Source: Duganella sp. Root336D2 (GTDB taxonomy: Bacteria; Pseudomonadota; Gammaproteobacteria; Burkholderiales; Burkholderiaceae_D). From it: a stretch of DNA of 64,000 bases. Location of the stretch: contig NZ_LMDB01000001.1 in the NCBI RefSeq assembly GCF_001425005.1, positions 64,393 through 128,392 on the forward strand, read 5' to 3'. Positions 48,735-52,978 of the stretch are shown here, in pieces. Position 1 is the stretch's first letter; each line of letters opens with the position of its first letter. The position numbers were made by a program, and so were the translations under genes. The notes under the pieces were generated by a model, which worked only from the letters and a program-made list of their open reading frames with translations, had not been told where the DNA came from and searched no databases.

Positions 48735-50336
48735 TTACTCGATGCCTTGGCTCTTCAGGTAGTCTTCATAGCCGCCGCGGAAGTCCACGACTTCTTTTTC
48801 CTTGATCTCGATGATGCGGGTGGCCAGCGAGGAAACGAACTCGCGGTCGTGCGACACGAAGATCAGGGTGCCGGCGTACTTTTCCAGGGCGATGTTGAGC
48901 GACTCGATCGATTCCATGTCCATGTGGTTGGTCGGCTCGTCCAGGAGCAGGACATTGTGGCGGCCCAGCATCAGCTTGCCATACATCATACGGCCTTTTT
49001 CACCACCCGACAGGACCTTGACCGATTTCTTGACTTCGTCGCCGCCGAACAGCAGGCGGCCCAGCGATGAGCGCACAGCCTGGTCGTCGTCGCCTTCCTT
49101 GGTCCACTGACCCATCCAGTCGGTCAGGTTGATGTCGCTGGCGAATTCCTCGGTCGGATCCTGCGGCATGTAGCCGACGTTGGCGTTTTCCGCCCATTTC
49201 ACCAGGCCGGTATCAGCATTCAGGCCGGTGATCTCTGCGCCGCCGATGCAGCGCAGCATGGTGGTCTTGCCGGCGCCGTTGGCGCCGATGATGGCAATGC
49301 GCTCGCCCGCTTCCACTGCCAGGTCGACGTTCTTGAACAGGGTGCGGTCATAGGTTTTCGAGATGCCCTGGGTCTCCACCGCCAGGCGGTGCAGCTTTTT
49401 CTCGCCGTCGAAGCGCACGAAGGGATAGGCGCGCGAGGATGGCTTGATGTCCTCGATCTTGATCTTGTCGATCATCTTGGCGCGCGAGGTGGCCTGGCGC
49501 GCCTTGGATTTGTTGGCCGAGAAGCGGCGCACGAAGTCCTGCAGTTCGGCGACCTTGTCCTTGGCCTTGGCATTGTTGGCCAATTGCTGGTTGCGGGCCT
49601 GGGTCGAGGCCAGCATGTATTCGTCGTAATTGCCCGGATAGATCTTCAGCGTGCCGTAGTCCATGTCGGCCACGTGGGTGCATACCTGGTTCAGGAAGTG
49701 GCGATCGTGGGAGATGATGATCATCGTCGAATCGCGCTGGTTCAGCGTGTCTTCCAGCCAGCGGATGGTATCGATGTCCAGGTTATTGGTCGGTTCGTCC
49801 AGCAGCAGGATGTGCGGGTTGGAGAACAGGGCCTGCGCCAGCAGCACGCGCAGCTTCCAGCCCGGCGCCACGGCGCTCATCGGGCCCTGGTGCAGGCTGA
49901 TGTCGATACCGGCGCCCATCAGCAGTTCGCCGGCGCGCGCTTCGGCGGTGTAGCCGTCGTATTCGGCGACCTTGCCTTCCAGTTCGGCCGCTTCCATGTA
50001 GTCGTCGTCGGTCGCTTCCGGGTTGGCGTAGATGGCGTCGCGCTTGGACATCGCTTCCCACATCTCGGTGTGGCCCATCATGACCACGTCCAGCACGCGC
50101 TTTTCTTCGTACGCGAACTGGTCCTGGCGCAGCTTGCCGAGGCGCTCGTTGGCGTCCAGGCTCACATTGCCGGCAGACGGTTCGAGGTCGCCACCGAGGA
50201 TTTTCATGAAGGTCGACTTGCCGCAGCCGTTCGCTCCGATCAGGCCGTAGCGGTTACCGTCGCCAAACTTGACGGAAATGTTCTCGAACAGCGGCTTGGC
50301 GCCGAACTGCATGGTGATGTTAGCGGTAGAAAGCAT
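48735..50336 (-). CDS. ybiT: ABC-F ATPase, YbiT type
   Basis: 533 residues with two ABC domains and no membrane part: first Walker [10 protein letters not shown], Walker [14 protein letters not shown]; second Walker [10 protein letters not shown], signature LSGGEKGRM, Walker [14 protein letters not shown]. The first signature reads VAPGWKLR as in E. coli YbiT. The interdomain linker [20 protein letters not shown] matches ABC-F proteins that bind the ribosomal E site. The role is translation-related rather than transport. Starts [20 protein letters not shown]. Confidence 0.95.
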
Positions 50337-50375: not shown

Positions 50376-50481
50376 CCCCGCCCACCATAGGGACGCATAG
50401 GAGCGGCCCTCGGTGGTGATGCAAAATAATCATCAAAAACATCACGAGACGCTACGGGATAGTGCCTCTTTCCGATTTCGC

Positions 50482-50547
50482 GGAAAACTCTTAAACGCTC
50501 TTGACCACTCTTGTTTTCTCTTATTTACTCTTATTCGCTCTTAAATT
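50482..50547 (+). repeat. Left inverted-repeat arm with six phased CTCTT motifs
   Basis: CTCTT occurs at 50488, 50498, 50508, 50518, 50528 and 50538, each exactly 10 bp after the previous. Against the reverse complement of the right arm 53 of 66 positions match with no gap (counted by hand), including a perfect 18-bp inner end (CTTATTCGCTCTTAAATT). Confidence 0.9.
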
Positions 50548-50728
50548 TCCTTACTTTCTTGCGCAGGAACATCGCCGGCTGCCATTCATTGTCATTTGGA
50601 AAGCGGACCCAGATGGTCGTCCATGCATTCCTGAACGAGCCGCCCACGGCATTCACGAACTGTACTGGCGAAACACTTCGTCCGGCGTAGCGCAGTGCCA
50701 GCTTCGACCAATTTAAGAGCGAATAAGT
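50531..50728 (-). pseudogene. Start-less reading frame inside the inverted-repeat element
   Basis: 65 sense codons run between a TGA in the right arm (50729-50731) and a TAA in the left arm (50531-50533). The interior reads like protein (SVSPVQFVNAVGGSF, then WTTIWVRFPNDNEWQPAMFL) but has no ATG before its last third. It may be a captured or decayed gene end. Not recognised. Confidence 0.35.
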
Positions 50729-50775
50729 TCAATCAAGAGGCAATAAGAGTGATTAAGAGCGAATAAGAATTTTCC
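50710..50775 (-). repeat. Right inverted-repeat arm with phased AAGAG motifs
   Basis: AAGAG occurs at 50715, 50735, 50745 and 50755, with near-copies AAGTT at 50725 and AAGAA at 50765, so the 10-bp phase is kept through six steps. The inner 18 bp are the exact reverse complement of the left arm end. Confidence 0.9.
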
Positions 50776-50795
50776 TGTATTTCGCGAACACCCCT

Positions 50796-52079
50796 CTATT
50801 GCCGCATCCAGTCGCGCAATTCGTAGTACCAATACGTCATTTGTGCAGCCAGCAGCCCGGCCGGGCCGCCGGTGGTCGGCAGGCCCCAGGCTGCGAACTG
50901 CTCGACCTTACTGAGTTCGCCCATGAGGGCAGCCGACAGGACATCGCCGGCCAACGATGTCGGCCCCACCCCGTGGCCACCGAACCCCATGCCATACCAG
51001 ACCCCATTTGGCAGCTTGCCGAGTTGCGGCATCTTGTGGCGGCCATAGCTCATCAAGCCGCTCCAGGCGTAATCGACCCTGGTGCCCGCGAGCTGGGGAT
51101 AGACTTTCAGCATATCGTCATACAACAGGCGCGCCACCTCCTCCGGACTACGCGATCGAACCGAGATGCGGCCGCCCCACAGCAAGCGGCTGTCCGCCAG
51201 TGGACGGTAGTAATCGAAGGCGAAACGTGTGTCGTAAATGGCCGCATCAGTGGCCAATGCCTGCGGCATCCGGCCGCCGAGCGGCTCGGTCACCATGACA
51301 TACGTCGCAATTGGCAGGATCGCGCCGGCCAGCGCAGGATACAGGCGCTCGAGGTAGCCGCCGCAGCAGACGACAACTTCCTCGCACAGCACTTCGCCAG
51401 CCGCCGTCGCGACACGCCAACCCTTGCCTCCGGCGGCCCGCGGCAGCGCCTCGATCGAGACCACACGGCTGTTTTCATGCACACGGATGCCGCCAGCCTG
51501 CAGCGTGCGCGCCAGGCCCTGCGCGTACTTCAGCGGATGAAAGTGGAAGGCGTTTTGCTCGTACAGGGCACCGAAATAACGCTCGCTGCGCGCCCGCTGG
51601 GCGAAATCGGCCGGCGAAATCCGTTGCCACTCGACGCCCAGGTGGTCGCGCATGAAGTGCTGGCGCTCATCCAGCACGCGCGGATCGTCAAACCAGTTGG
51701 CGAGGTAAATGCCGCCATGCGTAGCGTCGCAATCAATGCCGTACTGCGCGATACGACGGCGGATCTGGTCGACAGCGCCAAGCGTGAGCTGGTAGAGCCG
51801 CCTGCCCTGCTGCGCGCCAACGGTCGCCAGCAAAGCCTGTTCATCGAGCGAATAGCCGCCGAACACGAAGCCACCATTGCGGCCGGATGCGCCGTGGCCG
51901 ACCTGTTCGGCTTCCAGCAGGACCACGTCGCGCTCGCCATGCTCCATCAGCGACATCGCCGTCGCCAATCCCGCAAAACCGGCGCCGACGATGCAGATGC
52001 GCGCCTGTTGGCGGCCCGCCAGAGGCGCGCAGGCATCGCCGGGCGCGGTAGCGCGGTAGTAGCTCTCCGCGCCGTTCAT
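50796..52079 (-). CDS. FAD-dependent amine/amino-acid oxidase (DAO family, PuuB-like)
   Basis: 427 residues from the ATG at 52079, which overlaps the LD-carboxypeptidase stop (TGATG). FAD loop ICIVGAGFAGLATAMSLMEHG, HGASGRNGGFVFGGYS, and the C-terminal GVWYGMGFGGHGVGPTSLAG are typical of DAO-family oxidases such as gamma-glutamylputrescine oxidase. The substrate is not defined here: no other putrescine genes are nearby. Last gene of the minus-strand run from queE. Confidence 0.9.
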   Translation of the reverse strand: MNGAESYYRATAPGDACAPLAGRQQARICIVGAGFAGLATAMSLMEHGERDVVLLEAEQVGHGASGRNGGFVFGGYSLDEQALLATVGAQQGRRLYQLTLGAVDQIRRRIAQYGIDCDATHGGIYLANWFDDPRVLDERQHFMRDHLGVEWQRISPADFAQRARSERYFGALYEQNAFHFHPLKYAQGLARTLQAGGIRVHENSRVVSIEALPRAAGGKGWRVATAAGEVLCEEVVVCCGGYLERLYPALAGAILPIATYVMVTEPLGGRMPQALATDAAIYDTRFAFDYYRPLADSRLLWGGRISVRSRSPEEVARLLYDDMLKVYPQLAGTRVDYAWSGLMSYGRHKMPQLGKLPNGVWYGMGFGGHGVGPTSLAGDVLSAALMGELSKVEQFAAWGLPTTGGPAGLLAAQMTYWYYELRDWMRQ

Positions 52080-52978
52080 CACAGCGTTGGATAGCCGCTT
52101 GCCGTCAGGTCAAAGCCTTCGCCGTCGGAAACGAGATGCGCCCGCCCCCCGAATGGCAAGGTGCAGCGCGATTCTCCGTGGCCGAACGGCAGGCCGGTCA
52201 GCACCGGCACCGGCAGCAGGCTGCGGATATACGCCAGCATCGTGTCGAAGTCGTAACCGTTATCGTGCGGCGACAACCGGTAACCGGAAAAATCACCCAG
52301 CACGATGGCGCGCTGGCGCTCCAGTACGCCGGCAAAATGCAGCTGCAGCAGCATGCGCTCGACACGGTATGGATGTTCGCCGATATCTTCAAGGAACAGG
52401 ATGCCGCCATCGATCTGCGGCCAGTATGGCGTACCAATCAGGTGGTTGATCATTGCCAGGTTGCCGCCCCACAACGTGCCCTCCACGTCCAGCTGCGGAT
52501 TGCCTGCCCCCGTGCCGCGCACGGAATGGGTCGGCCCCTTCAGGCAATCCCAGAACTGTTTCAAGGTGTACGCAACCGGCTCCTCGCGAACCAAGTCCGC
52601 GCTCATCGGCCCGGCGAAACTGATGCGGCCTGTCGCCTGGTACAGGCCCATATGGAAAGCCGTGATATCACTGAAACCGACAAACAGCTTCCCGCTGTCG
52701 GCCATGCTGCGAAAATCAATGTGCGGCAGGATGCGGCTGATGCCGTATTGGCCGCGCAAGGCAATCACGATCTGGCATTCGGGGTCGGCTGCGGCGGCGT
52801 TCAGCTGCGCCAGGCGCTCGCCATCCGAGGCAGCGAAGCGCTCGAATTTGCGCTCCGCGTCGTAGTAATTGTGGACGATATAGCCTTGCGACTGGAGGCG
52901 GGAAATGCCGCGTGCCAGCGCGGCGTCATCGATGGGGTAGCCGCTGGTTCCGGCAATGGCAATTCCGATATTTTTCAC
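52079..52978 (-). CDS. Muramoyltetrapeptide LD-carboxypeptidase (S66)
   Basis: 299 residues. Nucleophile Ser103 in LFVGFSDITAFH, catalytic Glu in GILFLEDIGEHPYRVERML and His in GLPFGHGESRCTLPFG, the S66 triad. It removes the terminal D-Ala from murein tetrapeptides in the cytosol for cell-wall recycling (LdcA role). Overlaps the alpha/beta hydrolase by four bases and the FAD oxidase by one base. Confidence 0.93.
   Translation of the reverse strand: MKNIGIAIAGTSGYPIDDAALARGISRLQSQGYIVHNYYDAERKFERFAASDGERLAQLNAAAADPECQIVIALRGQYGISRILPHIDFRSMADSGKLFVGFSDITAFHMGLYQATGRISFAGPMSADLVREEPVAYTLKQFWDCLKGPTHSVRGTGAGNPQLDVEGTLWGGNLAMINHLIGTPYWPQIDGGILFLEDIGEHPYRVERMLLQLHFAGVLERQRAIVLGDFSGYRLSPHDNGYDFDTMLAYIRSLLPVPVLTGLPFGHGESRCTLPFGGRAHLVSDGEGFDLTASGYPTL

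Follow-up and report, generated by a model that had tools for sequence, protein, structure and literature searches.

The window, i.e., the whole 64,000-nucleotide stretch of Duganella sp. Root336D2 DNA analysed here, carries two mutually inverted arrays of short motifs between a gene for an ABC-F type ATPase, presumably ybiT-like, and a gene for an FAD-dependent oxidoreductase. Between the arrays lies the remnant of a further gene. In window coordinates, the features are the following:

48735..50336, minus strand: downstream neighbour, ABC-F type ABC ATPase (ABC_tran and ABC_tran_Xtn matches), outside the element
50475..50482, plus strand: left copy of the 8-mer ATTTCGCG, not supported as target duplication
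50482..50547, plus strand: left arm, six CTCTT at exact 10-bp steps, 3' of the deleted gene and overlapping its last codons
50507..50695, minus strand: pseudogene remnant, 65% identical to residues 92-154 of a 155-aa protein of Pseudoduganella guangdongensis DS3 (G002), with two in-frame TAA in the match
50702..50707, minus strand: -10-like box TCGAAG, set off from the -35-like box by a spacer of 19 nt; many intact relatives have TCTAAN or TCCAAN instead
50710..50775, minus strand: right arm, inverted array on the promoter side, four exact AAGAG plus AAGTT and AAGAA in phase
50727..50732, minus strand: -35-like box TTGAAC, overlapping the variant AACTT unit of the right arm; a box found family-wide
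50779..50786, plus strand: right copy of ATTTCGCG
50796..52082, minus strand: upstream neighbour, FAD-dependent oxidoreductase (DAO match), outside the element

A recount in the window sequence confirmed the CTCTT units of the left arm at 50488, 50498, 50508, 50518, 50528 and 50538, as named in the original prediction, and the right-arm units at 50715, 50725, 50735, 50745, 50755 and 50765 read AAGAG, AAGTT, AAGAG, AAGAG, AAGAG and AAGAA. The two 66-bp arms are alike at 53 of 66 positions without gaps. This element is the sole place in the 64-kb window where any 5-mer with two or more different letters runs for at least four copies at exact 10-bp spacing, and at spacings of 8, 9, 11, 12 and 13 the window holds no run of at least four copies among 5-mers with three or more letters. 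Three in-phase CTCTT gave five overlapping matches in the own genome, all inside the window element, and the backwards-read control gave none there. The arm-bearing stretches have a GC content of 0.38–0.41 per 100 bp vs. mostly 0.5–0.7 around them.

The feature is a decayed copy of a gene element. A DNA search found it as the single such element in the own genome (G000) and gave matches in three of 61 genomes, namely the own genome, G002 and G009. In G002, like arms enclose the 155-aa minus-strand ORF at L009:3323-3790, whose last codons enter the array. The left arm of the window is the counterpart of the downstream array in L009 and L054, and its right arm that of the upstream arrays in L009, L054 and L058. 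As the homology covers residues 92–154 only, the window gene lacks about its first 90 codons, and codon ~90 comes almost immediately after the -10-like region. The idea of a gene-less, non-autonomous element is consequently not supported, since relatives have a conserved gene between the arms that is deleted in the window copy. The flanking 8-bp direct repeat ATTTCGCG is indeed present at 50475 and 50779; as a target-site duplication it lacks support, because the 8-mer also occurs elsewhere in the 64 kb (three further sites on the same strand and four as complement, nine occurrences in total) and is not paired around the orthologous element in the G086 locus sequence.

Protein family and predicted domains

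A protein search with P0001 gave matches in 65 of the 74 genomes of the genus (own genome included; 1–15 per genome). With profile A1, built from 42 proteins, matches were obtained in at least 53 of 294 genomes and at least 10 of 44 genera of the taxonomic family, and in at least four of 369 genomes of the class, again including the own genome; these counts are lower bounds, as the best 10 (family) or best 8 (class) candidates per genome were scored. Intact family genes are under purifying selection, with dN/dS of 0.03–0.20 in 14 of 15 close pairs and saturation in the fifteenth, some of these ratios being rough because several dS values lie near or above 1. Searches of the 42 members against Pfam, NCBIfam and PHROGs gave neither a convincing match (strays at E 0.0018, 0.0039 and 0.046 concerned one or two members each) nor any transposase family match, and no obvious catalytic triad or signature was seen by eye among the invariant columns. 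No description of the family or the element was found in the accessible parts of the literature on Massilia, Duganella, Janthinobacterium and Oxalobacteraceae and, as far as these sources go, the protein family appears to be undescribed.

Intermediate sequences point to a relationship of the C-terminal domain. Distant proteins among the ORFs of the loci examined (L121–L123) match A1 at E 3.6e-12 to 9.5e-9, the lowest value being that of L121. A Pfam scan of the bridging proteins, covering L121 and L122, gave RAMA at E 2.4e-8 (34.3 bits) and 7.6e-8 (32.7 bits), respectively, at a cut-off of 35.2, and L121 lies above the DUF2924 cut-off (E 3.7e-8). Profiles A1 and A3 aligned in hhalign with Prob 99.1 and E 5.1e-19 over 131 columns. 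None of the 42 A1 members matched RAMA (PF18755) directly at E<=1. Residues N113, W115 and R135 are invariant in 35 sequences of A4, and the invariant Asn330, Trp332 and Arg350 of CcrM appear to correspond to N114, W116 and R136 of the family. By way of these intermediates, and with NxW and the terminal Arg kept, the C-terminal domain is linked by homology to RAMA/DUF2924, a DNA-binding domain.

AlphaFold2 models of two members reached a mean pLDDT of 89.7 and 87.4. The modelled C-terminal domain is beta-rich with a helix (block pLDDT mostly above 90), and we predict it to be RAMA/SAND-like; for neither model did Foldseek return a PDB match at E<=0.001, and the best 50 matches listed do not include CcrM. 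The modelled N-terminus has helices at 12–24 and 31–55, and a strand is not formed in the monomer. From the predicted helix layout, its ~50 residues could be ribbon-helix-helix-like; Pfam and PDB sequence searches of the N-terminus returned nothing of this kind.

In the accessible text on CcrM, the C-terminal (RAMA) domain contacts DNA non-specifically and resembles SAND (PMC6787082), and the RAMA domain of MPND is described, in the part of the report available, as binding DNA without sequence preference and with no clear effect of 6mA (PMC9963953). Because neither of these two RAMA domains prefers a particular sequence, the motifs may be read by the N-terminus or by a different protein. Across 36 loci, motif similarity follows protein similarity with r=0.62 for the N-terminus and 0.59 for the C-terminus, a correlation that is partly plain co-inheritance, as motif and gene share one element; the partial correlations (0.32 and 0.23, respectively, both permutation p 0.001) do not decide between the two domains as reader.

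Phased arrays and promoter-like boxes

Helical phasing is a trait of the family. Its ORFs were deduplicated to 67 loci, a sample that is not random as the loci are mostly best-scoring matches, and L035 was dropped for its short flanks, which left 66 for the phase test (lags 10, 11, 20, 21 and 31; 200 dinucleotide shuffles per locus). Phased arrays were found at p<=0.01 in 31 of the 66 loci and at p<=0.05 in 45, leaving 21 of 66 with no phased array at the latter threshold. Off-phase lags (100 shuffles) gave 0/66 at p<=0.01 and 1/66 at p<=0.05, and random control windows (100 shuffles) 0/95 and 6/95, respectively. When 43 loci were pooled and the motif was picked by copy number only, the spacings of the commonest 6-mer were 10 bp (51), 20–21 bp (21) and 30–31 bp (11), a peak that control windows did not have; copy number itself differs only at the top, with nine or more copies in 8/43 loci vs. 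10/386 control windows. The earlier suggestion of a one-turn spacing, suited to proteins lined up along one side of the double helix, is supported.

The motifs follow the subfamilies: CTCTT, GTCTC, CTCGTTT, CTCTGAAA, GTGCTGAAA, ACTGAAA, TTACTAA, GTCTAA and TGCTC. They are arranged in two layouts, with arms flanking the gene on both sides or head-to-head upstream of it, the upstream position of both arms being that of the CTCGT and GAGCA subfamilies. A subfamily in other genera (L115, L117 and L119) has intact genes, but phased arrays are weak or missing there (p 0.80, 0.80 and 0.025, respectively), which may be the state before or after array loss.

At part of the loci, the arrays run up to promoter-like boxes. 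Within 330 bp upstream of the gene, [TC]TGAAC was found at 38 of 67 loci (shuffled mean 9, maximum 14; reverse complement 7). The bipartite pattern of [TC]TGAAC and, after 17–19 nt, GT(C/G)N(A/C)A was present at 26 of 67 loci and missing in the other 41 (shuffled mean 0.075, maximum 1; reverse strand 0), numbers that are descriptive, since these very sequences had been viewed before the pattern was drawn up. At 13 of the 26 box-bearing loci the units were inspected, and they mostly proceed in 10-bp steps up to TTGAAC, with some steps of 12–13 or missing units. The -35-like box of the CTCTT and TCTGAA subfamilies coincides with a variant unit; at loci of the TACTAA, GTCTAA and TGCTC groups, the boxes are mostly missing.

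Presence, absence and motif change in related genomes

Dispersed copies and empty sites had been proposed as the sign of a mobile sequence, and the related genomes did show related copies at several loci as well as element-free relatives. Presence and absence could be followed at four loci, the first being that of the window. Here, the oxidoreductase gene of G086 is directly followed by an intact gene of 147 aa with its CTCTT arrays, another ORF lying between this gene and ybiT, and G069 has an intact 153-aa gene between oxidoreductase and ybiT. At this one locus, most CTCTT units of G086 are GTCTC or GTCTG in G069, on both sides and with the 10-bp phase unchanged, and AACTT variant units are retained amid them. 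Such a coordinated change argues that something reads the units. A degenerate copy remains after the oxidoreductase gene in G097, and in G006, an 83% complete genome, oxidoreductase and ybiT are adjacent with no element.

The original prediction also considered a regulatory array for ybiT, a role that is unlikely, as most ybiT loci are without the element and related elements adjoin unrelated genes. Among 30 loci, out of 74 genomes with a ybiT match, 25 showed no 10-bp run over the 600 bp ahead of that match and no family sequence over the 1.5 kb ahead of it. Family sequence does occur near ybiT in the other five (G000, G069, G086, G034 and G070), too many for the place to be one isolated accident. 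The distance to ybiT is about 0.9 kb for the G086 gene and about 1.2 kb for the end of the G034 gene. In G070 (L081), a relic that combines 10-bp-spaced CTGAA units with a family-domain remnant stands right before ybiT; on its other side is the gene which in the window comes ahead of the oxidoreductase. This relic could be an ancient orthologue that bears a different motif, or else a further insertion at a recurrent site.

At the second locus, between genes for a peptidase S46 and an NMN transporter, G009 and G086 carry a gene-less single CTCTT array, and the G009 copy retains, by eye, C-terminal codons of the gene. The locus has no array in G069, G097, G006 and G022; the sequence of G002 is a different one at this point, and the two genes are separated in G066. 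In the own genome, contig C36 holds a degenerate solo CTCTT array (L153, about 2070–2130) that matches those of G009 and G086. Thirdly, the G002 element sits between ABC exporter and cytochrome c genes, which are nearly adjacent in G000, G009, G086 and G066; in G006, G097, G069 and G022 a different gene order makes the locus uninformative. Fourthly, a TCTGAA element with terminal repeats of ~81 bp, 85–90% identical, is common to G000, G086 and G009 and missing between the adjacent genes of a GST/oxygenase locus in G002, G006 and G022 (G069, G097 and G066 being uninformative). Neighbour families were checked at the ybiT, exporter and peptidase loci, and the names GST and oxygenase come from reading the sequence. 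Beside the empty sites of the exporter/cytochrome and GST/oxygenase loci, no target-site duplication was seen by eye.

Across seven genomes, three in-phase CTCTT gave 20 matches, 19 of them at five places in four genomes and one in G097, and the backwards-read control gave one, also in G097. All places with three in-phase CTCTT are copies or relics of the element, which speaks against a CTCTT regulon outside the element in these seven genomes.

Many copies hold their position across species at 60–98% protein identity. Positional orthologues go down to 60–65% protein identity while their flanking DNA is 74–97% identical, and other relatives of 55–84% protein identity have no flank similarity. 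Together with the dN/dS values, these identities suggest that the copies are functional and fast-changing, often inherited in place and occasionally relocated.

Some further copies deserve mention. L044 (G000:C33) has dense GAGCA arrays and is another relic in the own genome, as its N- and C-terminal parts lie in different frames. L046 (G000:C33) shows no clear phased array; upstream, its promoter region is surrounded by a long inverted repeat that is nearly perfect. L042 (G000:C12) and L053 (G009:C44) have transposase-like genes downstream, ISL3-like and IS66-like by eye; some family copies thus adjoin insertion sequences.

Possible function of the element

We consider it probable that the window holds the relic of a gene element with phased arrays, whose protein represses its own gene by coating one helical face of the DNA and which sometimes relocates. 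An intact element consists of an upstream array, the gene and an inverted downstream array, about 0.6–0.8 kb in all. Its two-domain protein could bind the 5–6-bp motifs as an oligomer along one helix face and, because the upstream array runs into the gene's promoter, binding would shut off the protein's own transcription; the two inverted arms might additionally be bridged into a loop. Lineages differ in their motif, and one locus switched most units on both sides and kept the 10-bp phase. Many elements are inherited in place and some come to lie at new intergenic sites; others decay by internal deletion to paired or single arrays, the window holding a paired relic and contig C36 a single, degenerate array. 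A point against an autorepressor is the downstream array, which is unnecessary for autorepression.

A bolder possibility, which we put forward tentatively, is a new class of gene element with a private DNA code: protein and arrays would coevolve, paralogues within one genome would keep different codes, copies would spread and decay selfishly, and the arrays would have a centromere-like or bridging role beyond that of an operator.

Rather unlikely, in our view, is a strictly mobile element, with the arms as terminal inverted repeats at which the protein or a recruited host transposase assembles to move the element. Such an element would account for the related CTCTT copies at three unrelated loci, for the element-free relatives at the exporter/cytochrome, peptidase/NMN-transporter and GST/oxygenase loci, for the 85–90% identity of the ~81-bp terminal repeats of the TCTGAA element and for the occurrence of paired, single-arm and empty states alike. 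However, junctions read by eye show no target-site duplication, invariant columns contain no obvious catalytic signature, there is no transposase family match in the databases searched, and many copies hold their place across species at 60–98% protein identity. Moreover, the arms of the CTCGT and GAGCA subfamilies are not termini, as both lie upstream of the gene.

Doubtful to a higher degree is a centromere-like or nucleoid-organising site, where the protein would coat or bridge the arrays in the manner of ParR on parC to pair or position DNA instead of regulating its own gene. Repeats around a gene or promoter are likewise described for R1 parC in the accessible text (PMC9426499), and cross-talk would be avoided if each lineage has a motif of its own; against this stand the lack of a motor gene among the neighbours of the window, L009 and L010 copies, the gain and loss of copies and the persistence of solo arrays without a gene. 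A chance or structural low-complexity repeat without a reader protein (an AT-rich inverted repeat, attenuator or terminator) is hardly credible: the arm stretches are AT-rich and the arms of transcribed inverted repeats can fold, but this reading is largely contradicted by a phase that is significant in dozens of loci with different motifs, with none off-phase at p<=0.01, by the retention of that phase while the motif changes and by the purifying selection on the gene.

Returning to the self-repressing gene element, the known system that it would work most like is ParR/parC. In R1, ten direct repeats surround the parA promoter, and repeats of 10–11 bp are bound by ParR, as far as described in the text available (PMC9426499). 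Shared features would be a small DNA-binding protein, whose ribbon-helix-helix topology is in this family only predicted, and 10–11-bp repeated sites around a promoter that differ between related systems, again according to the available part of that paper (PMC9426499). Judged by sites and promoter-like boxes, tandem 10–11-bp sites around a putative promoter occur at part of the family loci. In contrast to ParMRC, no ParM gene stands beside the window, L009 and L010 copies; the family element is chromosomal, multi-copy and dispersed, its arms are mutually inverted and often on both gene sides, and its protein has a RAMA-like C-terminal domain. To RAMA/DUF2924 and the C-terminal domain of CcrM the family is linked via L121–L123, but without a methylase or nuclease domain, a direct RAMA match or a fold match. 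As a putative reader of repeated short motifs, the protein may also be likened to DEAF1, whose SAND domain is reported, in the excerpt available, to recognise two CpG separated by 6–11 nucleotides (PMC4274154); DEAF1 is eukaryotic, and the comparison is drawn without a sequence link. MITEs resemble the element in their inverted terminal repeats (80% alike over the 66-bp arms of the window), intergenic position, internally deleted relics and element-free relatives, and a gene-deleted copy such as that in the window looks like one. Unlike MITEs, the family element has its own conserved gene under purifying selection and no target duplication was seen at the junctions inspected, and its repeats form phased arrays with motifs that vary from copy to copy.

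This apparently undescribed family, which reaches 15 matches per genome within a single genus, supplies dozens of naturally varied proteins together with the code that each presumably binds, and that code is repeated several times beside each gene. If the protein does read the array, this would be a ready data set on the change of DNA specificity under constant helical phasing, and possibly a new kind of semi-mobile regulatory element. Were private-code reading true, a RAMA/SAND-type protein would use a DNA code of one unit per turn. The family is also a lead on roles of RAMA/DUF2924-type domains outside methylases.

A plasmid or phage origin was considered and rejected: a search of plasmid and phage DNA with the element gave no match, a protein search of GenBank phages likewise gave none, and protein matches were limited to one weak plasmid homologue and two IMG/VR contigs. 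The former is a distant homologue on plasmid pRL11 of Rhizobium leguminosarum (L186:2860-3435), where inspection by eye showed no phased array; an annotated abortive infection protein is encoded three genes away, and an IS630 transposase is nearby. The IMG/VR contigs (L187:3830-4843 and L188) carry a distant homologue as well. In the portion of L187 inspected, no phased array was seen; its homologue, on a phage contig, is 337 aa long with an extra C-terminal region and stands opposite ORFs that by eye are capsid- and portal-like.
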